The notes beneath the pieces were generated by a model. The model saw nothing but the letters and a program-made list of their open reading frames with translations. It searched no databases and had not been told where the DNA came from. Of a DNA stretch of 64,000 nt, positions 1,329 to 50,956 are shown piece by piece. The translations under genes were made by a program, and so were the position numbers. This stretch comes from Chaetoderma sp. LZ-2023a (taxonomy: Eukaryota > Mollusca > Caudofoveata > Chaetodermatida > Chaetodermatidae). Where the stretch lies: NCBI GenBank assembly GCA_034401795.1, contig CM067369.1:189060742-189124741 (forward strand). The letters run 5' to 3'. The number at the start of each line of letters is the position of its first letter. The first letter of the stretch is position 1.

Positions 1329-2144
1329 GTGTCAATACTGGGTATGCTGCTAGAGATGGAACATGCCGACGATGTGGACTTCATAGACGAGGAAAAGAAA
1401 CCCCTTGACGAACTTCTCCCAATATCTGCAAGAAAACTAAAAATTGAGAATCTCTTCATGAATGAATCCAAAACAGAGTTCATCCACATATACCTATCTG
1501 CAAAGCATGGAACTAAAGAAAATGACTATCCACTTCATGGCGGCGAGCCATGGAGGAAAGTACAATCCTTGGCTCACTGCTTTGCAGTACAGCTGACATT
1601 ACTACACGCTGCGTCATGGTGAACATAGCTTTCCAGTTCTTCTGGAAGCTATAGATTCGTAGATCAAAGATGCTATTGATCAAAAGACTACATTTATACA
1701 ATGCAACCTGCATATCCTTGATGCTGTATAACTGTAACAGCTGGGCAGTTCCAAAGGCAGCTCTAGGCAAACATGATGCTGCCACCGCAAACACATATGC
1801 ACCATCATTGGACACCGATAGCCAGACCGCATTATGTGTAATACGTCGCCACTGTCGCCATTATGTGCAATACGTCGCCACTGTCTGTAAAAGTCACCCA
1901 GCAAAGGTGGTCCATGTTTGGCCATGTGCTAAGGATGCCAGAAGAGACACCAGCACAGACAGCCCTACTTGAAGCCAACAAATACAAAGCCAGGAGAGGA
2001 CTTCATTGCATAAATCTGCTAACCGTACTACGAGGTGACCTCAAGAAAGTAGGACTCGGTACACTCAAGTCAAGAATGGACCTGAGGAAGCTAAGGATAT
2101 CGGCTGAGGATAAGACACAGTGGGCAAAAGCGAAGAATGACTGA
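1329..2144 (+). pseudogene. LINE reverse transcriptase C-terminal fragment (RTE-like)
   Basis: The + strand encodes a broken RT end. HADDVDFI near 1,355-1,380 corresponds to the RT active-site box (F/YADD). Downstream, in shifted frames, come a thumb-like segment (1,670-1,800) and RWSMFGHVLRMPEETPAQ (about 1,905-1,960), a typical 'RW.GHVLRM' C-terminal signature. The final part (1,970-2,144) ends with ISAEDKTQWAKAKND. At least two frame changes are needed, so it is not functional. The minus-strand fragment at 4,810-5,260 shares the signature (RWSLFGHVLR, then a GLGTL motif), so both belong to one lineage. Confidence 0.7.
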
Positions 2145-2211
2145 TTGCAGCTGTAGGATGTTTCTACTACTCCAGCTGTAGAATACAGTAATCATACATA
2201 CATATCTAGAC

Positions 2212-2480
2212 TGGTTTTTATTTCAGTCTTTTAATGGTTACTTCCCCAGTTTTCACACTGGTACGCATTTATACTCCTATTTCGAGAGAGGCAATGAGGG
2301 GTGAAGGAGATTGCTTATGTCTCCAGCGATCGCCGGATGGCCAACCAGAGACCAGAGACATGATCCCAGGTTCTCCTGTTCGCTGCGTAGCACATTACTG
2401 CCTGGGCTATCACCTTCTCTGTTAATGGCAAGAATTAAAATATATAATACTATATCGATGCTGCCTGTTACTCTCTGTCA
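2212..2480 (+). repeat. Repeat flanking a tandem array (left copy)
   Basis: The segment with 'tttttatttcagtct', 'acttcccca' and 'gtgaaggagattgc' recurs in the same order at about 3,665-3,740, on the other side of the tandem array. The two copies look like direct repeats enclosing the array. The end of this stretch runs into a (CCAT/CCAC)n low-complexity tract at 2,495-2,550. Confidence 0.45.
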
Positions 2481-2574
2481 GTCCATCAGTCCGTATGTCC
2501 ACCCACCTGCCCACCCGCCCATCCATCCATCCATCCAACCATCCATCTGTCTATCCGCGTCCAATCTCAGCCAA

Positions 2575-3560
2575 ATTTTTTTGGTTTAGCCCGACATATT
2601 GTCATACATCTCGGCATGGCTTCACCCTATTTGGACAAACGTGGACATATGCTTGCTTATCTCAACGGGACGAAGCACAAGGATATTCAGCTCATAATGC
2701 CACAGCTCAAGATCAATCTGATATTGGTATAACACTCTATTCTTTTGCAGTTAATATTTATTTTAGCTCGACATATCATCTTATATCTCGGCATGGCTTC
2801 ACCATATTGGGACTAAACTAGGCCATACGCTTCCTTTTATCAAGGGGATATAGCAGAATAATATTGAGGTCAGCAACTCAATGTTCAAGGTCAATATGAC
2901 ATCGGTATAAAACTATATTTATGGTTAAGCTTTTGGTTTAGCTTGACATCTCGCCTTAGATCTCGACACAGTCTCACATTATTGAGAATAAACATAGACA
3001 CATGCTTCTTTATATCACCAGAATGGAGGACAATGATACAAACCTCATGAGCTCAAAGTTCAAGGTCAATCTGGCATTGATATAAAACTAAATTTTTACG
3101 GTTACGTTTTTGGTTTAGCTCATTTTATTGTCCTATGTCGCAGGAGTGGTTCACCTTGTTGGAACTAAATCCTTCACCATGACATTGAGGTCATGATGTC
3201 AAGAACACTCAGAATTTGGTATAAAATTCCCAATTTGCTATGGTTAGTTTTTTGGGTTTGGTCTAATATCTTGGGATTGCTTTATCCTATTGGGATTAAA
3301 CTTCGATACATGCTTCCTATATCAAGTTGATGGATCACAATGATATTGAGGTCAACGGTCACGATCATTGTAAATATTTTATATAAAATGTCGTTTTTAA
3401 TGGTAAGTTTCTTCTGCTTAGCTCATCTTGCCTTTATTTCAGAATTAGCCAAAGTATTAGAACTAAGCATGGCCATACAGTTACCTCAACCATTAGCCAC
3501 GGCTGGAAAAAACCCATTCACACCTCTGAGGTTGACGTCATTTGGAAACGCAAAATGCTA
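2575..3560. repeat. Tandem array, ~175-bp units, about six diverged copies
   Basis: A unit beginning 'ggtttagctcgacat' and running through 'ctcggcatggcttcaccatattggga', 'catgcttc..tatatcaa', 'gatattgaggtca' and 'ggtataaaactatatt' is repeated head to tail. Copies start near 2,583, 2,762, 2,937, 3,113, 3,262 and 3,416. Spacing is about 150-180 bp. The copies differ from one another by many substitutions, so the array is old. Short open frames within it are incidental. A lone related unit lies at about 55,920-56,070 within the Xkr introns. Confidence 0.7.
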
Positions 3561-3843
3561 AATCTTTCACTAATATTTGATCAGTGTAACACTGATGTCT
3601 TGTTTAAGTTTAATTGATTGGCATCTATCGGGTCCCTGATTCCAGGCCCCATTCATGTCTTTTCTTTTTATTTCAGTCTATCATTGGAAACTTCCCCAGG
3701 AGATACAAGGAGTGAAGGAGATTGCCCATGTTTCTAACAACAGCGAGAGAGTGCAGAGTTAATAAATGCAAACCGGGTCCTCTGGTTAAGACATCTTGAG
3801 TGCTAACCACTACAGAAAACTGAGGATTCCTAAAATACATTGG

Positions 3844-4064
3844 TTAACTCTTTCATGCCGGCCTATGCAATGGTCTTGATGAATGACCATTTGCAGGCCA
3901 AGAATTTTTATTTTTTAAATTTGCTACTGGATGACTAGCGATAACCGAGCCATTCATTCCAGGTGGTAAGATTATAAAAATAGTCTTCTCTTGTCCTGCT
4001 AGTGGACATTCACTTAGCAAATACTCTGATTTTCTTGACCAAATTTGGTTATTAAAGGGCTAAA
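3844..4064. mobile_element. TTAA-type hairpin MITE, family A (diverged)
   Basis: Starts TTAACTCTTTCATGCC and ends with ATTAAAGGGCTAA. The middle is an imperfect inverted repeat of the family core (ccatttgcaggccaag ... taaccgagcc ... agtcttctcttg). It is a worn member of the family that is common at 46-64 kb. Confidence 0.65.
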
Positions 4065-4184
4065 CATGTTGCGCCAAATTGTAATTCCCCTCGGTGAAGT
4101 CACATGATCTAATTTACTTATAATGTACTTATATGATTGGTCTTGATAAGGAATATATAAAAAGACAGTCTTTGACCGATCAAG

Positions 4185-4392
4185 TAACACATGCACTAGA
4201 GGTAACACATTCAAGCTCAACACTAAACGCAACAGGGAAGAAATTCGTAAACATTTTCCCCCAAACCGAATTATTAACACATGGAGATCACTCCCTTCTG
4301 TCGTAGTTGAAGCACCTAGGCATGATGTGTTTAAATCAAAACTAGATACGCACCTACAAGACATAATATACGCTCACGACGTCACCAATTAG
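4185..4392 (+). pseudogene. LINE C-terminus (CR1/Rex-like), 3' end fragment
   Basis: An open stretch on the + strand encodes TRGNTFKLNTKRNREEIRK, FPPNRIINTWRSLPS and VVEAPRHDVFKSKLDTHL before a TAG stop at about 4,390. The pattern 'F..R..N.W..LP..VV.AP....FK..LD' is characteristic of the extreme C-terminus of CR1/Rex-like LINE polymerases. No RT core remains, consistent with ordinary 5' truncation. The 3' untranslated part probably runs to about 4,680. It is a separate lineage from the RTE-like pieces on either side. Confidence 0.7.
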
Positions 4393-4813
4393 TATATATA
4401 TAAGACAAATCTAGAAATATATCCAAATGCTAAGCACAACAGTGTATCATGAGCCAAGGCGGCGCGCCGCAGCTGATGCACGCCCGTCTGCACTACAGCA
4501 CTTCCCCAAGACAACTAGGGGCCAGAACAATGACAACCAAACATAGGCGTTGTGTATACAATGGACATTTGTGAAAATTGCTAGGTAATTACTCAAAATT
4601 AGAGGTTAACCTGAAGGAGAATTCTATGAGGTGGCGCTTACACACAGAACAGTACATAAATAAATGATTTTAAATTAACAGAGTACAAGCACTAATAATA
4701 CAATATCAACACAATCTTCCAAGACAATAACAAGCTAATGGCCTTTGCCTCGTAAACTGGTGTTGGTGGTGGTGTTGGTGCTGGAGGTGGTGGTGGTATA
4801 CTTGTTTTCTCAG

Positions 4814-4815
4814 GC

Positions 4816-4852
<37 letters not shown>
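4814..4852. repeat. (GAT)n microsatellite
   Basis: About 13 uninterrupted tri-nucleotide units (GAT/TGA). The homopolymer runs (poly-Asp, poly-His, poly-Ile, poly-Ser) in the six frames here are artefacts of this tract. Confidence 0.95.
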
Positions 4853-4869
4853 ATGCTTGTGTTCTCCAG

Positions 4870-5970
4870 CTGCAGTAGTTTGAAAACTCCATGCAGCTGC
4901 AAGTCTTTCTTTCCCGGCAACTGTTTCTTGTCCTCCGCGAGGGCCCTCATCTCCCCTATGTTCTTCATGGTCGTCAATGTTCCCAGTCCCCATAATTTTA
5001 GATCAGGACGTAGTACACTTAGTAGGTTTGTGCAGTGGCGTCCTTTAGAACCTTTCTCGATGTTGACAACGAGTACAGAAAATTCCAAGGCTTTCTGTGC
5101 AGCAGTGTCTTGCGGCACGCAGAACATGCCCAAACAGAGACCATCTTTGTTGGGCTTCCTTTATTGACGGTGGGACTGTATTGCACATGTGCCGTTGGAG
5201 ATTAAACTGTCTGGGCAGCGATTTTGCGCTATAGTAAGAAGGTGTATGTGATAACATGCATCAAGCTTATCTAGAACTGCCTTCGAGGCTGTCCAGCTGT
5301 TTTAGTTGTACAGCATTAGTGATACAAGCATAGCATTTTGCCAGAGGGATCAGTGACCACAGTGAGGTTTTTTTAAAGGAGAGGAAGGCAATGTTTCCTA
5401 TGATGCAATGTGCAATGATGTCAAGAGAGCTGTCATTCTTTTCTCGCGTGTGGCATGTGTCACATTGAATACGATTTTCCAAGTGCTATTGAGGAGCTCT
5501 ATAGGTCGCAGTTTTGCTGATGGTCCACGAGACTTCTTGGGTTTGGACAGCGCAATTTAAGGGTACCTTGCTCATAAATGTCCAGCAGTATCGACACTCC
5601 CTGTTCCTCAATAGCATGAAGGCAGTGTTTATTATGTGCATGATTGTTTTGGAGATGCTATCACCTGCATACTTAAAGAGGTCACTGCTGATCCTGTCGG
5701 GTCGAGATGCACGGCAATTTGTCAGGGCCTTAAGTGCCTTCTCAATCTCAGCTGTTTCACTTTGTGTTTATAGTGGCCTAGAATCACATACAAATGTGTG
5801 TAGCACATCATCATCTGAATCCTTTGAACTGGTTCATAAACCATTCTCTGATCGCATCTTCTTTTCCATTTGCCGATCCTGAGGAAGTTGTCTTCAGTGC
5901 TATGCACGGAAAGTGATGTTGGTGGACCAGCAACTCTCAGAGCCTGGGATCCCATAAACATTTAACGCCA
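4870..5970 (-). pseudogene. RTE-like LINE fragment, RT fingers to C-terminus, degenerate
   Basis: On the minus strand, reading from about 5,970 down, there is an RT start-like segment (EIEKALKAL, then SRPDRISSDLFKYAGDSIS, about 5,750-5,640), followed by frame-shifted remnants to 5,267. A C-terminal part follows with RWSLFGHVLR (about 5,165-5,135) and LLSVLRPDLKLWGLGTL (about 5,025-4,970). The palm with the catalytic aspartates is missing or scrambled between these parts. The lineage is the same as at 560-2,144. It is clearly inactive. Confidence 0.65.
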
Positions 5971-5989
5971 AGCATTGGTGGCTGTGTTG

Positions 5990-7090
5990 TTATCTGCAAA
6001 ATAATCTGCATCAAAGCAACAAACATTAGGATCAGACTGTAAACACTATAACATTGAGGTTGCATGCATCCAAGAAACAACAGTATCTCTTCATTCAGAT
6101 CAGCAACTTCAGACTGGAAACAAGCTTATCCTCATGCATCAGAAACTGGACTTTGGAATCAGACCGAAGCTCACATGCTAAGTTTCGGATACGTCAGCGA
6201 TCATGTTGCATTTCTTGACCTGGCCATACCACAAAGTGGTGCATTATTAATGCAAATGGTCCAACTGCGGGAAAACCCCAAGGAAGATCCGTCTCTGATT
6301 GAGTCTTTTTTTTGCTAAAATGAGTTCTACCATCACGGAGGTCGAGATGATCACATCTTCACTCCGCTTTCCTCTACAGGTAGATTGTAACATGAGCAGA
6401 TAACTATATAGAAAACGTAGGAACATAACTCTTCAATCGTGGATGGACTGAACATGTATCATATCACATGGATTTTCTGTGACAAGTGTGTCTTACATAT
6501 CTGTTTTGTTTGAATTTTCTTTGATAACTGCATTTTTAATTGTGACTTCACAGATCTGACACATTGACACTGTTGTTATAGCATGAAATTTGCGACAATC
6601 ACTTGTATTGAAACTTTAGAAGACTAGCTTAATATATATGCACAGTAACATATTTCTGGAAAAAATTTAGAAGTAAATTAGAATTTGCTATGCATGGACC
6701 AATTCTGAAATATAGCATCCTTGTAGCAATATATTTACTGTCCGGTGAAATCGAAATTTAAATATGAACATGCCACTAAATTAACCAGTCTCTAAAAATA
6801 AGTTGTACAACATTCTTCATTTTATAGATCAAAGATTTTGAGAAAGATGTGTTGCTGTTCATTCGGTCATCAAATGTTTCAGAAACATGTCATAGACAAA
6901 GCTCCCGTGAATCTTCAGAAATAGTTCTTTTACCATATTTTATTTATTCTCAAATAAAATGGAGACATACCTCAAATATATACAATATATATTTTCTTGA
7001 ATTGCAGCTACAATAGTTCCGCATACTGCCATACTCATATTTAGTGCAAAAGATCTAGCTCTGTATGTTAGAAAATTTGAACAATTGTTT
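5990..7090. other. No gene recognised
   Basis: AT-rich intergenic sequence. One 84-codon open frame (6,064-6,318, +) has no motif that I recognise and no supporting context, so I do not call it a gene. I see no clear repeats or hairpins here. Confidence 0.4.
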
Positions 7091-7253: not shown

Positions 7254-8159
7254 TTAGAATGTCGCCTCACGGATGTAGGTCTTAAATATCTCTACATCCG
7301 TGGCGGTGATTGTTTCTTCAGCCAGGTTGTTCCATATTGGTATAGTTCTCGGTAGAAATGAGCTATGGTACTGGCTAACTGTTGTCTGATATGGCTGTAG
7401 CTTCAGTGGGTGACTGTGTCTGGTGGTGTTTACGTTGGCCCAATTAGGATGGTATTCTGTTGGTATAGCTACTTGCCCATGCAGGATCTTGTACATGAAG
7501 ATGACACTGGCCTTCATTCGCCGTTGTACAAGGCTTTCCCATCCCAGTCGGCTCATCATTGCTGAGACATTCTGCCTCGGATAGAGGTACACTTGGCGAC
7601 CTATTACAAACCTTGCAGCCTTCCTTTGCATGGCTTCAAGTTGTTTTTTCAGGTCACATGTTGGTGGATCCCAGACTGTTGAAGCGTATTCAATTTTTGG
7701 TCTGACAAACGATTGGTAGGCACTTTCTTTGACGGATGCTGGGCATGATCTTCGATTTCTTGTTAAGAATCCAAGCACTCGGTTTGCAGATGATGTTGAT
7801 TTAGATATCTGATTGTGCCATTTTAGGTTGTGTGTTAGTTGGACACCGAGGTATGGAGCGGATTTACATTCCTCCAACCTTTCCCCACTCATTGTGTAGT
7901 GTGTTGTGAGGCATGATCTTCGTTGGGTGAGTTTGATGATATTACACTTCGATATGTTGAATTTCTTCTGCCATGTTTCCGTCCAGGCCATAAGTTTATC
8001 TAGGTCTGATTGGAGATGGCGCTGATCCTCTTCTGTATGTATGGTCCGATATACGAGGCAGTCATCAGCAAATAGCCAGATCATGGAATTGAGGTTTTTT
8101 GCTATGTCGTTGATGTAGACTAAAAGGAGGATTGGGCCTAAAACTGACCCTTGTGGCAC
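7254..8159 (-). CDS. LINE reverse transcriptase, palm to C-terminus
   Basis: A 301-codon open frame covering the catalytic palm onward. PQGSVLGPILL is RT block 4/5 and FADDCLVYR is the active-site box with two adjacent Asp (Phe replaces the usual Tyr). It continues with a conserved thumb (TETWQKKFNISKCN, APYLGVQLTHNLKWH) and the C-terminal block (YASTVWDP). It normally copies LINE RNA at the nicked target. The upstream RT part (8,684-8,328) is in another frame, with about 170 bp between, so a full polymerase cannot be made from this copy. The open frame itself is unusually intact for this window, suggesting a fairly recent insertion. Confidence 0.85.
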   Translation of the reverse strand: MPQGSVLGPILLLVYINDIAKNLNSMIWLFADDCLVYRTIHTEEDQRHLQSDLDKLMAWTETWQKKFNISKCNIIKLTQRRSCLTTHYTMSGERLEECKSAPYLGVQLTHNLKWHNQISKSTSSANRVLGFLTRNRRSCPASVKESAYQSFVRPKIEYASTVWDPPTCDLKKQLEAMQRKAARFVIGRQVYLYPRQNVSAMMSRLGWESLVQRRMKASVIFMYKILHGQVAIPTEYHPNWANVNTTRHSHPLKLQPYQTTVSQYHSSFLPRTIPIWNNLAEETITATDVEIFKTYIREATF

Positions 8160-8327
8160 TCCTGACAGGACTTTTGTTGTCTCAGAGCAGACACCTTCTA
8201 TGGCAACCTTTTGCTGTCTTTCACTGAGGAATGATGTTATCCATCTCAGAATGTTGCCTTGTATTCCGTAATGGTGTAGTTTCAGTAGTAGGTTTGGTGC
8301 GGTACCTTATCAAAAGCTTTTGCGAAG

Positions 8328-13499: not shown

Positions 13500-15742
13500 T
13501 CCAAGGATCATAGTAGGGTCGAGGATAAGTTAGATGATATCTTCTGTAGAGCATTGGATAGCATTATCCCCTGAGTGGTGTATCTATTCAATCTCATTAT
13601 GACCTCTAAACAAATTCCAGAGCTATTCAAGACAAGTGTCATTATCCAAGTTCTAAAGAAAGGTAAAGACTCAACGACTCCATGTAGCTACCATGGCATC
13701 ACTGTTTTTTCCATTATTGAAAAGGTGTTTGAGCACACGATTCTAAACCTCATTAGAACTCAGCTGCCCCAGAGTCAGTCTCGACTCCAGTATGTGTTCA
13801 CCAAAGGCTTATTGCCACTAATGTCAAGCCTTACCCTCTCAGAGACTACTCACGATTCACTCGAAAGAAAAGATCCTACATACATGGCTTTCCTCGACAC
13901 ACAAAAAGCTTTCGATGTTGTGGAGCATATGTCCCTACCTATACGATCAGGGTATCAACTTGCATATCCTACAAATTGCCGATCTCTTGTACTCTGGACT
14001 TACTTCCAAAATCAAGTGGAAGAACTGCCTCGATCCACCATTCCCCATTTTACAAGGAGTTCATTAAGGTGGTATCTTGTCTCCTAGCCTCTATAAAACC
14101 TGCATTAACAACTTACTTACGCAGCTAGAAAAGAGACAAATTGTTTCATTCATTGGCACTAACTACACCGGATTTCCTATCATTGCTGATGATGTGATGC
14201 TGGTCAGCAAGTCATCAAGTGAATTACAGTGTATGTTGAACTGAACATTTACCTACTCAGCTAGGGAATGGTTTATCTCTCATCCATCCTGAGAAAACCT
14301 CGGTGTTGTGTGTGCCTTCGCCAAAATATCACAATGAAGTGATCTCTGACTGGCATCTTGGTGACACTGAAGCTTCACTATCTTTGCAGGCTACCCATAT
14401 CGGCCTAATCCATAGCTCTAAAGACAAAATATCTCTCAATATTGAGAACCGAATATCCCTGGCTAGAAAACTATTCCATAGCCTCTCTGGGACTGGAATA
14501 CATGGCTCCAACGGCCTTGCACCAAGAGTAACCCTAGAAATATTTAACATGTACGTACTACCATGCCTTCTTTATGGGTTAGAGATATTTATACTCCAGG
14601 AAAATCACCTTAAATGCCTATAGGGTTTTCATCTGCAGATGCTGCGCATAATTCAGTCTCTGCCCATGTGTACAGCGAAATGTGCAGTTTTCCTTCTGAC
14701 CGGGATTAGGGCACTGCTGAGCTACATCGCCGACAACTAATATTTCTTGGTAATATTATAAGATGCCAATACGCTTCCCTATCTGACATCATGTTATGTC
14801 AGTTAGCTATAGGATCCAGTGCATCCAGAGGCTGGTCAGGTATACTGGCAAACTTCTATCTCAATATTACCTTCCACCTATAGCTCACCTACTTGACCAC
14901 ATGCCTGGGAAGGAGGCTTGGAAATCTATGGGAACATCTTCGATTAATGGCTACTGGAATGCTGGTCATCAGGATGAGTGTAGTTAAAAAAGCACTCTCT
15001 GAACTTTGCCATACTGGCTATCGGCACAGTTCATATATCAATTGAGACAGTCTTAAACAACACCAAAGATGCAAAAAGATGCTTTGTTAAATCTCGTCTC
15101 TTAACTGGCACATACTTAGTCCAAATGACTCTCCATAGATTTAGTACTTTTAATGTTGACCCAATCTGTCAACTTTGTCAGAGTGCCCACGAGGACTACA
15201 TGCATATGCTTACCTCATGCCCCGTTCTGCTTAGATATAGGATAGACAGTCTAAAACAAATCAAACAGCTCATTATTTCCGTATTAGATATATCAACATG
15301 GAATCTAATAGCCGCTGATTTAATCTGTCTAACTCAACTTATCATAGACTGCACTGCGCTAGTAGACTCTGGTATCCTTCCTAATGGCGACGCCTTGCTC
15401 TGCAATATTGAAAATCATAGCAGAAGCTTGTGCTACGTTATACACTGTGGCAGAACTTAGATTTCCAACCTGCAGTCAGAGTAATCCATATTCTCTATCT
15501 CTGGTTCATGTAGTATGCTTGTTTGATGCTAATGTATCTGTATATGTGCATATAATCATCTTAATCATGTGCTTGAGTGCCTTAATTGTCCGATTATTTA
15601 ATTCTGTATGTTAATGAAATTTATTTTAATCTGTCTATCGTCTCTTAGTCCTCTCCCCCACTAGTGGTTTTACTAGTTTTAACAGAACAAATTTTTACCA
15701 CTGCTGTGGGTGCGCCAAACTATTGGAGGATTATCCTTGCTC

Positions 15743-15745
<3 letters not shown>
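13500..15745 (+). pseudogene. Degenerate LINE polymerase with C-terminal CCHC-like motif (I/Nimb-like?)
   Basis: The + strand carries RT fingers (SVIIQVLKKGKDSTTP, about 13,640; 'Y.GITV...IEKVFE', 13,690-13,730), the palm Asp box AFLDTQKAFDVV (about 13,885-13,920) and the active-site box IIADDVMLVSKSS (about 14,170-14,210). The thumb and connection follow (LEIFNMYVLPCLLYGLEIF, 14,540-14,600). A late zinc-knuckle-like end, ICQLCQSAHEDYMHMLTSCPVLL, lies at about 15,165-15,230 (first Cys to last Cys spaced C-x2-C-x7-H-x4-C). Many stops and frameshifts separate these pieces. The (CAA)n tract starting at 15,746 fits the tail of I-group elements. Lineage assignment is tentative. Confidence 0.75.

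Positions 15746-15800
<55 letters not shown>
15746..15800. repeat. (CAA)n microsatellite, probable LINE tail
   Basis: About 18 perfect CAA units, placed directly after the 3' UTR of the + strand LINE. The poly-Gln reading frame across it is an artefact. Confidence 0.95.
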
Positions 15801-15937
15801 TTGGTTCAGCTGTAGTTGGCAATCTGTCTGTAGAATCTCAGGCATTGACTGCAGCACATCTCTTCTCCTAGATTCCAGTGCATGGTACCTCATTACAAAA
15901 TGGCTCACAGTTTCTGGTTATTCCTCGCATAGCAGAT

Positions 15938-16120
15938 AGTCTTAGAGGCAAAAGCAGGATGTAATGTTAACTTTTGAAAGAAATCGCCAAATTTGGCACA
16001 GATAACTTTTGACAGGTACTAATCAAATCCTGATATCAGACACCCATTTTGGGATTGGTTAACGCCCCTAATTAGTATAAAACCAAAATGGCTGCCACGG
16101 TTATAGGCTAACCACAATAT
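15938..16120 (+). repeat. Left terminal inverted repeat of the Academ-like element
   Basis: Pairs with 19,560-19,736 in reverse complement with only scattered mismatches and one short gap near the tip, where the left copy has about six extra bases after TCTTAGAGG. Confidence 0.85.
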
Positions 16121-16389
16121 GTGCCATATTTCACTGAATATTAAGCGTATTGTGATGAGATTGGTATGCATTGGGATAGTTTTTTATATGCCCAATTGAC
16201 TGGACATGTTTGCATCGTCTTCCAAGGTCATTGTCAGGAAATGTAGGTCAATGTCAAATGTTTATTCGCCTAAATAGCTATAATTGTCCAGTATGTAAAG
16301 GTCAGTCAAATGTTTTAGGCCCAAAAACATAATTCCCGATGGAACTGTATTATTGTAAAGTTTTTAAATTCATTAATAAAGTATGCTGT

Positions 16390-18880
16390 TTTCATTTGCA
16401 TTCTCGAAGCTTTGGGTAGTGAGCAGTCTACAGGCCTACCATGTAAAATTGAATTAGGTCGAGCTGATTCCATGGTAAAGGGCACACAGGTGAGAATGAC
16501 GCATTATTCACATTGCATTACAGCATTGACACTTTCGATTCTGCGAAAGGAGGCATATACAAAGTACAGTAGTGACGGTCAGGAGAATGGAGCTGTACTC
16601 CTATCATTTGAGTCATGGTGTAAACACAAGGAAGAAGCGTGCCCTCAGTTCAAATACTGGCAGGTGGCTTATGATATGGAGATGTGCCTGCTGTGCTTTG
16701 TGCGTTCTATTCGTGTCGGAGACTGGGATATGTATGTCAGAACCTTGAATGAGATTGTAGATTGGGAATTTATTCTTGATCACTACCATTGTGCCTGTTT
16801 GCTTCCAGTGCATATGCGTGATATGCTAAGCCTCCGTATAAACCATCCAGACCTCTACAAGCAGTTTGTTGAAGGCTTCTTCACCATTGCCAAGACACAA
16901 AATCCATTCTCTCTGATCGGATTTAACCAGAGCAGCAGAATAAGGAACTGAAAATTCATGATGGTACCCTGAATCTGAAAGATAAGTGTGTTTTCACAGA
17001 ATTGTCCATTGTTGGTCCAGAAGTTTTATGGGTCATCGCAGAGTTTGAGGCTAGTATGAGCTCAAGCAGGAGCTCTGTTTATAAGCATCATGATCGGAGT
17101 CCATGCATCCAGAAAAGGTTTGCAACAGACACCAAAGAACTAGTCGCAGCATTCCAAGAAGCAGGAAATCCCTTTGATGGGGACAGTGACGAGGTCATCA
17201 TTCTTGACATGTCATGTCAAAGGATGTCATCCATAGTATTATGTGTGTTCATGAGGAGGGAAAGAAACAGCATTCAGCTTTCATGAAGGAGCGCCTGGAG
17301 TCTCAAGCAGTTGCTTTCCATAAACCAGTTAAGATGAACAAAATCCCACTTCCCAGCAATCGGCACAAAAACCCAAAAAGCAAGCACGTCAATAGCCTCA
17401 AAGAAGACTTGAATCTACAAGGGCAGCTCTATATCGCAATGCAAGTCAGGGAAGGAAATACTTGACAGCCTTTTTGAAGTGGAGAATGCTGATGGCCAGC
17501 CATCCTTATCAAAGTGTGAAGTGCGAAAGTGTGGCACCTGCGAAGTGGCCAAAAATCTGATCTACTACCATCCTTAGAAACAGAATCGCCATCTGACTTT
17601 GATAAAGCTGACGTGAAACTTATTGATGGCGTTGGTATGGTGAATTTAATAAGACCGGAGAGAAGCATAAAAAACTTCAATGATTATGCAAAGAAGAAGG
17701 TTATTCCATTCATTGAGAGGCATCTGGCTGCGGCCAAATACATTGATGTCATCTGGGACAGGTATTTATCAGACAGCTTGAAAGTGACAACCAGGGAGAA
17801 AAGGGGAGCAGTAGTCAGACAGCGATTACCATGTAATGGGAATGGGAAAATGTCGAAGAACTTAACAGCTATATATGCAGGGAAAACAATAAGATGGAAC
17901 TGTTCCAATATCTATCAAAATTGATAGCACAGTCCATCTTCTGTGATGGGAAAATGGTTATTACAACTATGGATGAGCTCGTCCTTCAGCATCCTGCACC
18001 ATGCGATTATGACGCGGCGATTGGGTCAGATTATTCTCTCAGCCCATGCAACCATGATGAGTTTGATACTAGAGTTACATGTATGTTGCATGCAGAAAAT
18101 GCAGTGTCAGAAGGCTACACACGCATACTGATTATCGCAAATGACACTGATATCGTTGTCCCGGGGATTGCTTTTTTTACTGAGATTGGGGCAGAGAAAC
18201 TATGGGCGTCATTTGAAATGGGCAAGAAATTAAGATATGCTTCCATCCACGAGATCTGCAATACCATGCATCCTGCAAAGGCATGCATGCTCCCCACAGT
18301 CCATGCCCTGACAGTGTCTGATAACACATCCTTCTTTTCTGGCACAGGGCAGAAGTAAGCATATGGAAAGTGGCGTACAAAGCCGGACCGTACAAATGTG
18401 TTATGCCACCTCTCACATTATCTTCAGAGGATATCAAGGTAATTGAGGGTTTCGTAATCTCTGTGTCCTGTCCTCTAACAGAAGTCAAACACAATGCGCC
18501 AGCATATATTCGCTCAATCCTCTCATACATTCAAGTACCTGCCACCAACTAAAGCAGCCTTGATAGAGCATGTCGAGACAGTGACTTATCAAGCTTGATA
18601 TGTGTGGGGGGGGGATAGGCAAACTCTCGTGGCCAAACAAGTTTTGCCATGTCCAGGCTCAAGGGGTGGGTTAAGTCTGAGTCCAGTTGAGTGCCTTTCT
18701 GGACCCCTCTCTGTCGATCAGCAAATGCATTTGAAGAACTGGTCAATTGCGGCTGCACTACAAGCTGTACAGGAAGGTGCTCCTGCTATAAGAAAGGGCC
18801 CGTGTGTACAGGCAGATACAAATGTGTAGGAAGCTGTTATGGTCGTCCCGGACCTCCTCTGACACCAACATGTAACTGAG
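16390..18880 (+). pseudogene. Broken transposon gene: alpha-helical core, PIN/XPG-like nuclease, Cys8 finger
   Basis: Collinear pieces in shifting frames make one protein. First is a helical segment (FESWCKHKEEACPQFKYW, SIRVGDWDMYVRTLNEIV, 16,412-16,950). Then come 16,955-17,213 (YKHHDRSPCIQKRFATDTKE) and 17,214-17,465 (LPSNRHKNPKSKH). Next is 17,529-17,890 (FNDYAKKKVIPFIERHL, IDVIWDRYLSDSLK), followed by the nuclease-like part at 17,894-18,357 with CMLHAENAVSEGYTRILI, ANDTDIVV and a VHALTVSDNTSFFSG box. The finger is at about 18,735-18,830: CGC-x3-C-x3-C-S-C-x6-C-x5-C-x3-C, eight cysteines. I recognise the whole as a large multicopy invertebrate family in which the box reads TGCDNT; here Gly-Cys has become Val-Ser. 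At least five frameshifts or stops occur. The N-terminal part of the family is missing upstream, so this copy is internally deleted and inactive. Confidence 0.75.
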
Positions 18881-18892
18881 CGGCACATAAAT

Positions 18893-19565
18893 GTTGATGA
18901 CATTGGATTCCCGGACTTGATCTTGATATTATTTAGACAGTGAGTTGCCTTCACTTTAGTATAGCATAATCAGCCACAGCATATAATAAATTTAACACAA
19001 TTTAAATGCAAAAAGTCAGTTTTATTGGCGATCTATAGCGATTTACAGCCAAAAACATTTGACCTTGACCTTTACATGGTGACCTTGCTTTTGGATGATG
19101 AGGAAAACCTCTTCAGGTGATCAGACATCACCAAAACTATAAGACTGCATACCAAACACATTGGAATGGCATTACTATTAGCCAGCTAGGCTTGTCATTC
19201 ATGATTCTGATGATGTTGGTTTTAGAAATATATGGATCATGCGACACGTAAAGTGTCATGACCTTGATCTTCCAGACTTGATCTTGAGATCATGGAGACA
19301 AAGTGATACATTTATAATTTTAGTATAGCATGATCTGACCTGGAATGCATTAGATTTAACACAATCCAAAATGGGCAAAGGTCCATTTTATTGGACGATT
19401 TATAGCTATTTTTGGACCGAAAACCTTTGACCATGACATTTTCTGGTGGCATTGATGGTGGATGAAGACAAAAACCTCTCCAATTGTTCGGGCATCCAGA
19501 AGACCATCAAAATACATACCAAGCTCACTGGAAACTGTTGATTGCTAGTTGGGATATGGCCATAT
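18893..19565. repeat. Two ~350-bp direct repeats in the transposon's right sub-terminal region
   Basis: Copy 1 (18,893-19,250) and copy 2 (19,251-19,565) share, in order, ACTTGATCTTGA, TTTTAGTATAGCAT(A/G)ATC, ATTTAACACAAT, TTTTATTGG..GAT, 'aaaacatttgacc/aaaacctttgacc' and 'cataccaa'. The duplication lies wholly inside the element, between the end of the broken gene and the right TIR. Confidence 0.7.
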
Positions 19566-19736
19566 TCGGTTTAGCTTATATCGCCGGTGGCCATTTTGGA
19601 TTTATGCTAATTAGCGGGCGTTACCAAATCCCAAAATGTGTGTCCTATATCAGGATTTGATTAGTATATGTCAAAAGTCATCTGTGCCAAATTTGGTGAT
19701 TTCTTTCAAAAGTGAACATTCCATCCTCTAAGACAG
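19560..19736 (-). repeat. Right terminal inverted repeat of the Academ-like element
   Basis: Reverse complement of 15,938-16,120. Its outer tip TCTTAGAGG lies at 19,726-19,734. Confidence 0.85.
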
Positions 19737-19766
19737 AGGACTAAGACACTATGGACCACGTACATA

Positions 19767-19992
19767 ATGTGTATAGCGCCATCTACGCAAAATCCGAGAG
19801 GCGGGATCTACACAAGAACAAGAAGAATGGCAGCGGCAAGTTTGAATTGTGTTTATATGCCAAAGCGCATGAAAAATGATAATATACCTACTAAGAGAAA
19901 TAATCAAATGGTTACGCGACAGCCGTTTACAAAATTAGATATTTTCTTTGTTATTTGTTCTATGCTTACATATTTTGCGGACCTTTTCACTG
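19767..19992 (+). CDS. Xkr: Xkr-family gene, exon 1
   Basis: Encodes the cytoplasmic N-terminus and first transmembrane helix of an XK-related protein: PFTKLDIFFVICSMLTYFAD followed by LFT. The exon ends ...CTT TTC ACT G before the donor GTAAAC at 19,993, leaving phase 1. Joining to exon 2 at 48,968 completes an Asp codon and reads YFADLFTDVLLTGHYY, which matches the family pattern Y.AD..TD......YY at the TM1/TM2 junction. ATG at 19,767 is the first in frame; ATG at 19,827 (MAAASLN) is an alternative start. The family exposes phosphatidylserine or supports lipid transport in the plasma membrane. The exon begins 31 bp after a transposon end, so the promoter or an upstream exon may lie to the left. 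The exon call rests on family pattern plus phase and needs transcript support. Confidence 0.72.
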
Positions 19993-22423: not shown

Positions 22424-23793
22424 CATCATGTGACGAGTGCCACAAGTTCGTACGGGTCCTATTTAAGGACCATGTCTGCTTTAGATGTACTGCATGTAAC
22501 CTTGATAGTAGGTGTAATGTGTGTGCGGTGTGGTCCGCGGATATGATGTTGAAGTTCCTTGCCCAGAAGGATTTGGCTGGGTCTGACGCGGGGTCAGGCG
22601 GTCCAAGGTTAAATCGTGGAGCGTCCGGTTCGGCCGGTGGGGGCTCACCACGTCCTCAGTCGGAGGTGGCGGAGATGGCACCGCCGGCGTGGTTTGGTCC
22701 GGTTCTGGCTCTCTGCGGCCACCTCCGGGTGGTCCAGTAGCGGTGGCCCGTCCATCAGGACAACTCTTCGGGGTCTGAAGACGAGGAGGAGAGGTTGCTG
22801 CGGCCTGTGATGCAACGGGTGGAGAAGATGGAGGTCGATTCCGTCCTGGACGGAACCGTTCTCCATCTGTCTGGCTTGGCGCAAGCCAGGGCAGCGGCTC
22901 CGCCCGTGGTTGAGGCCAATCTGGTACCGGGCACCAGTCCCGTGATGGTTGGTTTGAGTTGCTAGAGGCTATTTTTAGCAAGCAGCTCATGACCAAGGGC
23001 CAGCTCCCTGCGGCCTCGAGGGAGGTTCGGGCAAGGTGTCATATTCCACGGGGGGAATACGACAGGTATGGTGTGGTACCATCGGTTACGAAGGATGACT
23101 GATGGGTTCTGGGTGTCCAGAGTGCTGGAGCTGGTGGCCCCGGTCCGGCACTGGTGAACAAGTCCCAGGCACACCATGAGGAAGTCCTGTCCCTATGTGA
23201 TGAGGGTGTGAGGGCAGCTATGAGTGCTGTCAACCAGTCATCGCTTTCTTCAGTCGGTGTGGGCTGAAGCGGGGGCAGGCCACCCTGTGCCACCTGTGGC
23301 GCTTTCGTGCGTAAATGACGTCCTGGTGCTGTCTATGGACGTGCTGGCAAGGGTGCAGGCGCGTGTTACAAAGTCCAGGAGGCAAATGGTTCTTGACCAT
23401 ATGCGTCCGGCTACGGCCGTCAGGGAGCGTCTTCTTGGGACGCCCCTGACAGGTCCTAGCATCTTCGGTGGCCAGGCGCGGGCCATCCTAGAGGACACTG
23501 CTAGCATTGCGCAGAATCGGTTGGAGCTAGTGCGGCAAGCGCACGCACTAGGGGCTGTAGGGAAGCCGTTGACTGTTCAACCTTCCAAGAAACAGAAGAA
23601 GCATAAAGGCAAGGCAAAAGCTAAGCCTAGTGCGGCTTCTGCTTCGTCTGGATTTTCTCAGCCGGCGGCGGCGAAGAAAGCCAGGAAGGTTGTGGAGGCC
23701 CCTACCCTCCCCAATGTTGCTCTGGATCGCCCTAGAGGCAAGGGGAAGGGTAAGTCCTCAAAGGGCGGAAAGAAGGGAGCGGATCGCACCTGA
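22424..23793 (+). pseudogene. DIRS gag-like ORF, frame-shifted
   Basis: It opens with a cysteine-rich region, SCDECHKFVRVLFKDHVCFR then CTACNLDSRCNVCAVW (22,424-22,545), a probable zinc-binding head of DIRS gag proteins. A long Pro/Gly/Ser-rich stretch continues to about 22,740, where a stop or frameshift breaks the frame. Later frames recover a helical part (23,224-23,560) and a very basic tail, KKQKKHKGKAKAKP to RGKGKGKSSKGGKKGADRT, ending at 23,793 (nucleic-acid binding). The homologous head recurs in the truncated copy at 34,878. At least two frame changes mean that no complete gag is made. Confidence 0.7.
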
Positions 23794-24089
23794 GGGTACG
23801 AGAGCTCCATTCGTATCCGCCTGGACCGCACCTGTGCGACAGGAACAGCGGTGCCAGTTAGACCTTCCGAGCCAAGACCGAAATGGTTCTCTCTCTCTCG
23901 TTAAGAGAGGGGGTGGGGAGCGGACCGCGAGCCGGACAACCCCGTTAGGCGTCTATAGTGGGTGGAAGGCTCATGCGTTTCGTCGAGGGTTGGCGAGGTG
24001 TGACGTCAGACAGTCTGGTCCTGGGATGGTTATCCCAGGGATACATGCCGGAGTGGTGGGACTTTCCGCCACAGAATCTGTCTGTGGCA

Positions 24090-25035
24090 CCTGTCTGGAC
24101 ACCCGTACCAAGGGACCAGACCAGTTAGAAGCCATTCAAAACGAAGTGTCAGGTTTGCTTCTGAAGGGAGCAATAAAACCAGCAAACCAGTACACTCCAG
24201 GCTTCTATTCAAATATGTTCCTTGTCCCCAAGAGCACAGGGGGATGGAGACCCGTACTCAATCTCAGGCCATTAAATTGGTTTATCCATACGCCTCGGTT
24301 CCAGATGGAAACGCCGAGGTCGATAATGGCAGGGTTGAGGAAGGGAATGTGGTGTGTGTCGATCGATCTGAAAGATGCATATTTCCACATTCCAATGAAC
24401 AGGAGTTGTCACAGGTTTCTGAGATTTGCATTTCAGAATCAAGTATGGGAGTTTATTGTTCTCCCGTTTGGCCTGTCGACAGATCCAAGGGTTTTCACAA
24501 GAGTGGTCCTTGCGGTGACAGCGTTTCTCAGAAAAGAGAACGTGGCGCTACACACCTACATAGACGACTGGCTGATCAAAGCAGACTCGGCAGCCAGGTT
24601 GGACGTGGATACTGCTCTGACTCTGAAGTTACTTTCAGATCTAGGCTGGATAGTCAACAAGGAGAAATCCGAGTTGACACCCACTCAACATTTCGTTTAT
24701 TTGGGGATGCGATTCGATCTCGAGGAGGGCAGGGTTTACCCATCAGAGCCCAGAGTGCTGTCTCTGTTAGCCATCCTCAAGAGTTTTCAAGTGGGAAACC
24801 ACATTGAGGCGAGGCGGTTTCTTCAGATGCTGGGCATGATGGTCTCCATGGAGCAGGTGATCCCGTACGCTGCTCTAATGCGAAGACCTATCCAGTTGTA
24901 TCTGATGTCTGTGGAAACAGAGAACAGTACCCCTGTCAAAACTGGTGCCAGTTTTGGAGCCGATAATGTCGCATCTTGTATGGTGGAAAGAGCGTCAGAA
25001 TCTCCTAGTAGGGGTTTCGCTGCACCTACCCCACC
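24090..25035 (+). CDS. DIRS reverse transcriptase domain
   Basis: An open stretch carrying the RT of a DIRS element. Fingers: EVSGLLLKGAIKPAN and FLVPKSTGGWRPVLNLRPLN. First catalytic Asp: CVSIDLKDAYFHIPM. Middle block: FIVLPFGLSTDPRVFTR, where the family usually has 'GLS.AP', so Asp-Pro may be a change. Active site: YIDDWLI with two Asp. Connection: FVYLGMRFDLEEGRVYP. The enzyme copies the element's RNA. The frame is open from 23,630 to 25,210, but its head (to about 24,080) overlaps gag in another frame and is unlikely to be used as written. The RNase H continues in other frames. Confidence 0.85.
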
Positions 25036-25580
25036 CCCAGCTATCCGTGTACACAGATGCATCGCTGGAGGGGTGGGGGCCTGCCTGGGAGAGCACCAGG
25101 TCTTGGGCACATGGACTCTCCAGGAGAGCCAGCTGTATATCAATCTGTTGGAAATGATGGCAGTGGAACTGGCGTTGGAAGAGTTTCTTCCGATGATCAG
25201 GGCAAGGTGATATTGATACGGTCGGACAATTCGACGGTAGTATCATACATAAATCGCCAAGGCGGGACCAGGTCACCCACGCTGTGTATCAAAGTGTGGC
25301 ACTTGATTCAATGGTGCAGGAATTACTCGGTTTGTTTTGAAAGCAGCTCACATTCCTGGGCGATTGAACATTCTGGCGGATGCTTTGTCTCGCAGACAGA
25401 GAATTCTGCCAACAGAATGGTCCCTCAACCCTCCAGTTCTACGAAGGATTTTCGAGCATTGGGGCAAACCCAACGTGGACTTGTTCGCCACAAGGGAAAA
25501 TGCTCAAATCATGACTTATGTCTCGCCGATTCCAGATCCAAATGCCGTCGATACAGATGCTCTGGCGATAAGCTAGAGGG
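25036..25580 (+). pseudogene. DIRS RNase H domain, frame-shifted
   Basis: Catalytic-site pieces are split over three frames: LSVYTDASLEGWGPAW (about 25,042-25,090), IRSDNSTVVSYINRQGGTRS (about 25,215-25,275) and KAAHIPGRLNILADALSRR (about 25,340-25,397). These match the first Asp, the DN.T.V box and the 'H.PG..N..AD.LSR' end of the RNase H of this class. Two frameshifts are needed, so the polyprotein is broken here. Confidence 0.8.
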
Positions 25581-25582
25581 GG

Positions 25583-26730
25583 ATGCACGCTTACGCGTAC
25601 CCACCCACCATTCTTCTGCCGAAGGTATTGGTGAAGATCAGGGAGGAACCGTGTCTGGTCCTGCTAATAGCGCCGTATTGGCCCAGCAGGGCATGGTTCA
25701 CGGATCTGCTAGATCTGCTGGTGGAAAACCCAGTGCAGTTGCCCGAGATTCCGAACATAATCTCCCAGGCCAAGGGACGCTTCCTACACGAGCGTCCCGA
25801 AATGTTCAAATTGACTGCGTGGATGTTATCAAACAACGTTCCACGTCGGAAGGCTTTTCTCCACAAGCTGCTGATTTCATCGCGGCTGCGAGAAGGAGGT
25901 CAACCTTCAAGTCATATAACAACAAGGTTAACAGATTTGGAGACTGGTGTGAAGAAAAGGTTATTGATACCTTTCAATCCACTATTCAGCAAATAGCAGA
26001 CTTTCTCTGTGAGCTGTTCTTTTCAGCACTAGCTCCCGTCACAATTGCTGGATACAAGTCAGCTTTGGCATCAGTTATCCCTTGTCTAGCCAACAGGGAT
26101 AGTCCAGAGGTGGCCCAGTTAAATGTGATGGTGAAGGGAATGAGCAATCTCCGACCGAGACAACCGGTGGTCATTGCAGCCTGGAGTCTATCTTTAGTGC
26201 TTAATGTACTGGCCAAGATCCATTTTGAACCGTTGCGTTCGGCTAGTCTAAAGCATTTGACTCTAAAGGCGGTCTTTCTATTGGCAGCTTCCTCAGCTAG
26301 AAGGCGCAGTGAGATCCATGCGCTTTCGGCAGAGAGGGACCGATTTATTGTCTCCGGAGAGGGTCTGCGTCTTCTGCCAAGAGCAGAGTTTATGTCAAAG
26401 AATCAATCTTTGAGATATCCCGGCAAACCGATCATAATACCGAAGTTAACAAGGTTTGATCGTGATGCCAGTGTTTGGTGCCCGGTCCGTGCTTTGACTA
26501 AGTACAGGAAACGGACTGACTCGTTACGGTCGAACGATAGACATCTGTGGATCTGCCATAAGAAGCCTTATGGCACCGCATCTATGGATACTATCTCTCG
26601 TTGGGTAGTCGAATGCATTCAGACTACTCATGAGATGGCGACTGGGCACCAGTCCTCATTCACGGATTACTATATGAGGGATGTGTCAGACTCGGCCAAT
26701 CCACTCGCTTTAGCTGTTTTGAAACGATAG
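25583..26730 (+). pseudogene. DIRS tyrosine recombinase (YR), catalytic box II missing
   Basis: After a connector (VLLIAPYWPSRAWFTDLLDL, 25,655-25,715) comes the SAM-like core-binding domain (STFKSYNNKVNRFGDWC, VTIAGYKSALASVIP, 25,900-26,080). The catalytic domain has box I in AASSARRRSEIHAL (about 26,288-26,330). The frame ends with SSFTDYYMRDV, holding the nucleophilic Tyr, then SANPLALAVLKR and TAG at 26,728. In relatives an HxxR box and an 'ATSWA' segment separate box I from the Tyr. Here THEMATG runs straight into HQSSF, so about 30-35 residues look deleted in frame. The recombinase should be inactive. The decayed DIRS at 45.2-45.4 kb still shows the missing block. Confidence 0.8.
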
Positions 26731-49439: not shown

Positions 49440-50956
49440 TACTGAACCAAAGAAGTTTAGCAACACTGAGAATATTACTGTATAAATGTTATTTAACAAA
49501 AACAATAAATTGATTCAAATATATTATTTAATTGATAGGTCATTTTCCAATTTGAACAACAGTCTCTTGTTACTGTAATGCTAGCATCGCGCCTTTAACG
49601 CGGCATCATTCAATGGAAGGGTCCAATTTAAATAATGGCACTGAGCTGTCAATACCGGTTGTGACCTCCGCGCGCATTAACCACCGCCGTACATCGCTTT
49701 CTCATGCTTCGAATTAAGCACCTGATGTCACGAAGAGGAATCGCATCCCATTCCTGTAGCAGTGCAGCTTCCAGCTCCCGCACGTTGTGAAGATGTGGAT
49801 GGTTCTCACACACCATACGGCCAAGCATGTCCCACACGTGTTCGATAGGAGACAGGTCCGGTGATCGCACTGGCCAGTCCAACACCGGAACGTTGTTAGC
49901 CTCAAGGAAATCACTGGTGACCCTAGCTGAATGAGGATGGGCGTTGTCTTGCTGGAACATAAAGTCTGCATGATGCTGCATAAAAGGGATGACAACAGGG
50001 GTGACAACTTCTTCACAGTAACGTTGAGCCGTTAAATTTCCGCGAATCACAATAAGATCTGTTTTGCCATTTTCATAGATTCCAGCCCACACCATGACAC
50101 TGCCTCCACCGAATCTGTCGTGCTGAATGATGTTGGCTGCGTCATACCGTTCTAAACATCGCCAAACCCGTTGCCTACCATCCGCCACATCCACACAAAA
50201 CCTCGAATCATCACTGAACAAAACATGGCTCCATTTTTTAGCAGGGCATCGCTGATGAGTTCTTTCCCATGCAAACCGATTCTCGATGTGACGCTTTGTA
50301 AGCGGAACAGCAAAAAGTGGACGACGGGCATGCAGTCCAGCATCATGGCGTCTGTTACGCACAGTTTGTGCATGCACCGTAGTGCCGGTAGCGGTGTGCA
50401 AATTACGGGACAGCCGCGGCGCAGTCTCAAACCTCAAATCATCACGACGTCACTAAGTAGCGGTCTTCTCGTGGTACTATTGCTGTCGGTCTGCCAGATC
50501 GTGGTCAGTCATTAACAAGTCCAGTTTCCTGCTCACGTTGGCGGAGACGGGAAATGGTTGAGGCGTGAACATTAAAATGTCGAGCAACAGCGCGAACGCT
50601 CTTCCCAGCAGCGAGTCTTCCCATTGCTTCATGGCGCTGATTTTTGGGTAGCCCTGGGCGGCGGCCCATATTCGGTAGGGTAAACTTTTAAGCGTTTTCT
50701 GTTAACGTTCGTTATCTGCTTTTGCAATATGGTGAATTTTTGCCTTTGCTACCAGCCAATGTGGGCCAGTGCATGAAAAATGCATTTTCACATGCAGTAA
50801 GCGTGCGGCCAAGAAATGCAAGAAATGATTTGCATTTCTTCATGATCAGCGAGACATTACATTGACGAAACATGCCTGCAAATTTGGTTATAAATGGACG
50901 CATAGTTTTAATACAACAAACCAAACTTCACTATTGCTAAACTTTTTTGGCTATAT
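49440..50956 (-). mobile_element. Tc1/mariner element, ~1.5 kb
   Basis: The left tip ACTGAACCAAAGAAGTTTAGCAACACTG and the right tip in reverse complement (ATAGCCAAAAAAGTTTAGCAATAGTG) form ~30-bp imperfect inverted repeats next to TA. A minus-strand DD34E transposase lies between. It sits in Xkr intron 2. Confidence 0.8.
49649..50671 (-). pseudogene. Tc1-like transposase, DD34E, broken near the N-terminus
   Basis: The N-terminal helix-turn-helix is read from about 50,671 (MGRRPGLPKNQRHEAMGRLA, then SVRAVARHFNVHASTISRL). A TGA stop follows near 50,513, then the GRP box PRSGRPTAI, then a frameshift near 50,450. From 50,437 to 49,649 the frame is open for 262 codons. It holds the second HTH region (RNRRHDAGLHARRP) and catalytic residues FSDDSRF (first Asp), QQDNAHPHSA (second Asp) and SPIEHVWD (Glu), with 34 residues between the second Asp and Glu. 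Catalytic residues are intact, but two lesions separate them from the DNA-binding head. Confidence 0.88.

Follow-up and report, generated by a model that had tools for sequence, protein, structure and literature searches.

A probable Academ-superfamily DNA transposon, dead and internally deleted, carrying an XPG-like nuclease in the aplacophoran mollusc Chaetoderma sp.

In a 64,000-nucleotide stretch of the genome of Chaetoderma sp. LZ-2023a (assembly GCA_034401795.1, contig CM067369.1, positions 189,060,742–189,124,741; hereafter the window), long inverted ends enclose a broken gene with a nuclease-like segment and a cysteine-rich finger. This raises the question of whether the gene is the cargo of a DNA transposon and, if so, of what kind; the original prediction, made from the letters of the window, named Academ as the closest described system and left the choice between Academ and a separate superfamily open. 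Here we conclude that the element, 3,807 bp long (15937–19743), is very probably a cut-and-paste DNA transposon of the Academ superfamily, now dead and with an internal deletion, and that AcademX is its most likely lineage. We assign it by its architecture and by the length of its target duplication.

The inverted ends are real, and they are longer than the ~180 bp first proposed. Ungapped, the arms at 15956–16067 and 19616–19727 cover 112 nt at 90% complementarity, and with gaps they extend to ~340 bp (15956–16293 and 19389–19727; 75% over 344 columns, E=1.3e-54). The exact termini, 15937 and 19743, were fixed from other genome copies and from unfilled sites. Most of the other copies start TAGTCTGCTGTCTTAGAG and finish, read inwards, TAGTCCCCTGTCTTAGAG; the left end of the window element is 7 bp shorter than theirs. 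AGA stands on both flanks.

Joining the window flanks with one AGA yielded 39 matches in the genome, two of which are the window's own halves. Counted by eye, 30 of the 39 reach 10 or more bases past the junction in both directions, with identities of 74–89%, and the two of these that were read base by base are ungapped and carry a single AGA each; the target duplication is therefore 3 bp. The element inserted into a copy of another dispersed repeat, the unfilled relatives of which show the site as it was before insertion. Filled sites give the same length. Of eighteen copies for which both ends were retrieved, 14 could be scored, the others having lost one end (C13:12.8, C13:63.9, C8:88.8, C15:40.07). 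An exact 3-bp duplication flanks 10 of the 14; when ends from different copies are paired, 9 of 182 combinations show one. In none of the 14 do the flanks match at 4 bp or more. The left boundary was set by hand in two of the 14 (the window and C2:46, with a left end 7 bp shorter); excluding both leaves 8 of 12. The dispersed repeat that hosts the element lies at window 15860–15936 and 19747–19786 and has 30 genome matches across the insertion point.

Are these ends tied to the gene? The host genome searched comprises 2.44 Gb, and the window is included in the counts. The original prediction placed the protein in a large, multicopy invertebrate family; within this one animal genome it forms a dispersed family. 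With the left 301 bases as query, 40 of 182 first-look candidates were scored; the 39 other than the window are 86–93% identical, and most start at query base 40, which is window 15939. For the nuclease piece, 150 matches were scored of 5,034 candidates, the first 66 of the 150 at 48–100% identity (window included) and most of the others at 32–39%. Downstream of 28 of the 40 left ends, on the same strand and 1.5–12.4 kb away, lies a close-family nuclease match from among the 66 used, and no opposite-strand nuclease match was flagged within 15 kb of any of the 40. Approached from the gene, a right end was found within the 1.5 kb fetched at 24 of 30 nuclease loci, one of these being a 48-bp match only; at the other six no right end lay within that distance, and one of the six sits at a contig end. 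With ends and gene linked in 28 of 40 and 24 of 30 cases, the pattern that would have counted against a transposon, gene copies lacking the ends or ends lying mostly apart from the gene, is not seen, and the proposal that the gene is the cargo of a DNA transposon with terminal inverted repeats (TIRs) gains support. One could still suppose that the ends flank the gene by chance or belong to an unrelated repeat, given that the window ends are just 75% alike over the full arm and that 12 of the 40 left ends have no nuclease match within 15 kb among the 66 used. This supposition is refuted by the unfilled sites, which span the exact junction, and is at odds with the matching 3-bp flanks; we give it practically no weight.

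Between the ends lies, as had been proposed, one collinear but broken gene. Its pieces, shifted in frame, align to residues 733–1467 of a 1,492-aa open reading frame (ORF) in a fuller relative, L062, and its finger aligns with that of another, L063. In window coordinates, the parts of the element are:

15934–15936, unstranded: left copy of the target site duplication, AGA, 3 bp
15937–16293, + strand: left TIR, terminus TAGTCTTAGAG, 7 bp shorter than the TAGTCTGCTGTCTTAGAG of other copies
16457–17175, + strand: decayed gene part 1, putative transposase region (its C-terminal part); L062 protein residues 733–978
17211–17861, + strand: decayed gene part 2, an ORF with a linker and the N-terminal part of the XPG-like nuclease; L062 residues 993–1214
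17870–18667, + strand: decayed gene part 3, remainder of the XPG-like nuclease with EFDTR, ANDTDIVV and HALTVSDNT boxes; L062 residues 1210–1467
18748–18837, + strand: C-terminal cysteine finger, eight Cys remaining of nine
18880–19533, unstranded: subterminal direct repeat on the right side, 18880–19166 and 19241–19533, 71%, spacing ~361 bp
19389–19743, − strand: right TIR, terminus read inwards TAGTCCTCTGTCTTAGAGG
19744–19746, unstranded: right copy of the target site duplication, AGA, 3 bp

Since the window gene matches only this part of L062 and the finger of L063, it has lost its N-terminal half, and with it the first part of the putative transposase, but has kept the nuclease. The earlier view that an N-terminal catalytic core had been deleted is thus not borne out, as the nuclease is present with all of its expected acidic positions (below) and it is the N-terminal half that is missing.

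Fuller relatives encode a protein of ~1,500 aa with N-terminal Cys/His pairs, a putative transposase region, the nuclease and a nine-cysteine C-terminal finger. L062 reads through its 1,492 aa in a single frame, which is shifted just before the finger. L042, 5.8 kb long, has inverted repeats at 1653–1882 and 7274–7491 (91%) and encodes overlapping ORFs of 298 and 1,249 aa, at 5832–6725 and 2135–5881 on its minus strand; it starts TAGTCCAGCGGCTAAGACC, and an A run on either side is compatible with a 3-bp duplication but does not resolve it. Among copies of its lineage at 96–97%, the longest open frame is 1,532 aa, and many of these copies have stops within the matched stretch. In a third lineage, an end starting TAGTGCAGCAG is common to two copies. 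Judged by divergence at synonymous sites (dS), the window family is old and decayed (in 45 pairwise comparisons among ten copies, median dS 0.20 and a nonsynonymous-to-synonymous ratio, dN/dS, of 0.79) and the L042 lineage is younger (dS 0.017–0.029, 10 pairs). A further lineage, that of L040 and L041 (99.5% identical over 4,550 bp), has an 813-aa ORF and many near-identical copies. Contigs C1212 and C1991 each hold two copies of it 42,048 bp apart, a spacing that suggests duplication, either of a large unit or in the assembly.

The original prediction of an XPG-like nuclease joined to a cysteine-rich finger is upheld. The predicted fold of the relatives' nuclease matches EXO1, FEN1 and XRN1 best, as seen in the VIA-align second look at the Foldseek 'pdb' matches. 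The nuclease of the window carries acidic residues at all seven positions corresponding to the FEN1/XPG site. The lineages compared conserve these positions, apart from two at which a single decayed copy departs from the rule. Both predicted boxes are present, as ANDTDIVV and HALTVSDNT. The likeness to the FEN1/EXO1/XPG 5' nucleases thus lies in predicted fold and in the order and spacing of seven residues, whereas sequence similarity is not detectable and the domain is fused to a large transposon protein. A phmmer search of PDB with the window nuclease piece gave chance matches only, PDB profile searches with nuclease A1 and A2 gave 0 matches up to E=10, and hhalign of A1 against human FEN1 returned a probability of 0.3%. 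Pfam and NCBIfam scans of the element proteins found chance-level matches below cut-off and no credible model, which may be the reason that copies are annotated as uncharacterised genes. Upstream of the nuclease, acidic and His residues are invariant, among them D389, D410, H420, D431, D573, D608 and H611. The structural model of this putative transposase region is poor (predicted local distance difference test score, pLDDT, 43.6; predicted template modelling score, pTM, 0.45), and of catalytic folds only the predicted flap-nuclease-like one is shown for the element.

As XPG-like nucleases are host repair enzymes, a host gene might have been captured by a TIR element and lie outside its machinery. 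We consider this very improbable: in 28 of 40 cases the nuclease lies downstream of a left end and shares its strand, the L062 ORF holds nuclease and upstream region in one frame, and the invariant residues span both regions in the lineages compared.

The finger of the relatives has nine cysteines at the C-terminus, of which eight remain in the window. We read nine as the family state because the window family has CTGRCKC in its majority row where the window has CTGRYKC, so that the eight-cysteine spacing described earlier holds for this copy, which has lost one. One finger falls in register with the Tesmin/TSO1 CXC domain at E=2.8, at most a hint of resemblance. Short peptide pattern scans found no relatives in viral contigs or prokaryote genomes; none were found in plasmids.

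Which superfamily, then? A C-terminal Cys8 finger is an Academ feature. The Academ superfamily and its AcademX lineage were reportedly described by Kapitonov and Jurka in 2010 and Kojima in 2020. Academ elements encode a DDD/E transposase (PMC9587614), and duplications are 3–4 bp in AcademX and 9–10 bp in AcademH (PMC10045372). The present family combines TIRs (in the window and L042), a 3-bp duplication and an XPG-type nuclease, and it is on account of the nuclease and the duplication that we favour AcademX; it differs in its nine-cysteine finger and, in the window copy, in lacking the N-terminal half. At 5.8 kb, L042 is near the 5,565-bp mean of 100 curated bivalve Academ elements (PMC10294476). 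AcademH, of the same superfamily, has a helicase instead of the nuclease (PMC10045372); its long duplications disagree with the 3 bp of the window element and the lack of any match at 4 bp or more. KolobokP, too, is described as a DNA transposon that carries an additional nuclease (PMC9587614). It has long terminal direct repeats, whereas the window ends are inverted, with direct repeats that are subterminal and on one side only, and no direct repeats of at least 40 nt were found in L042. A separate superfamily that brought together transposase, XPG-like nuclease and cysteine-rich finger independently would fit the want of a direct sequence match to Academ, the putative standing of the transposase fold and the chance-level Pfam and NCBIfam matches. 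Such a superfamily seems unlikely to us, as a nuclease with a 3–4 bp duplication is AcademX as published (PMC10045372) and Academ is already annotated in Chaetoderma sp., the repeat table giving 18,303 copies, 13.7 Mb and 0.56% (PMC10810820). Academ thus stands as the favoured, if provisional, assignment on architecture and duplication length.

In fuller relatives, a single ~1,500-aa protein could bind the long inverted ends, using the Cys/His pairs at its N-terminus and the finger at its C-terminus. A DDD/E domain, expected from the Academ literature, would cut the ends and join them to the target across a stagger, observed here as 3 bp, and the XPG-like domain, from its predicted fold, may cut or trim 5' strands at excised ends or gapped insertion joints. 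The window copy, with the N-terminal half of its gene lost and frameshifts gained, would be mobile only in trans, if at all. A bolder version, which we hold to be a long shot, is that the XPG-like domain is not accessory and is itself responsible for one of the two strand cuts, the 5' strand being cut by a flap-nuclease-type site fused to the transposase; if true, this would be an excision chemistry different from hairpin or double-DDE cutting. It is compatible with the flap-nuclease-like fold as the sole catalytic fold seen and with the conservation of its seven acidic positions.

Other mobile sequences lie elsewhere in the window. At 23573–26727 (+), a reverse transcriptase ORF (RVT_1, E=2e-20) precedes a second ORF that weakly matches a phage-integrase SAM-like domain, and the pair looks like a DIRS-type element. 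Non-long-terminal-repeat retrotransposon pieces (RVT_1; zf-RVT) occupy 7254–8306 (−) and 13575–15457 (+), the latter followed by a (CAA)n run at ~15740–15799, and a 265-aa Tc1-like transposase fragment (HTH_Tnp_Tc3_2, DDE_3) lies at 49649–50446 (−).

The window element is ordinary as a kind. Its main value is that of a clean case: for an Academ-type element of an aplacophoran, the termini are exact, the duplication is defined as 3 bp and unfilled target sites can be read. The large set of lineages, old and partly younger, is noteworthy in a non-bivalve, because a survey of mollusc genomes described Academ as almost exclusive to the bivalves in its sample (PMC10294476), although Academ is already listed in the genome paper of this host (PMC10810820). 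The fuller relatives provide material for asking what role the nuclease has in transposition.
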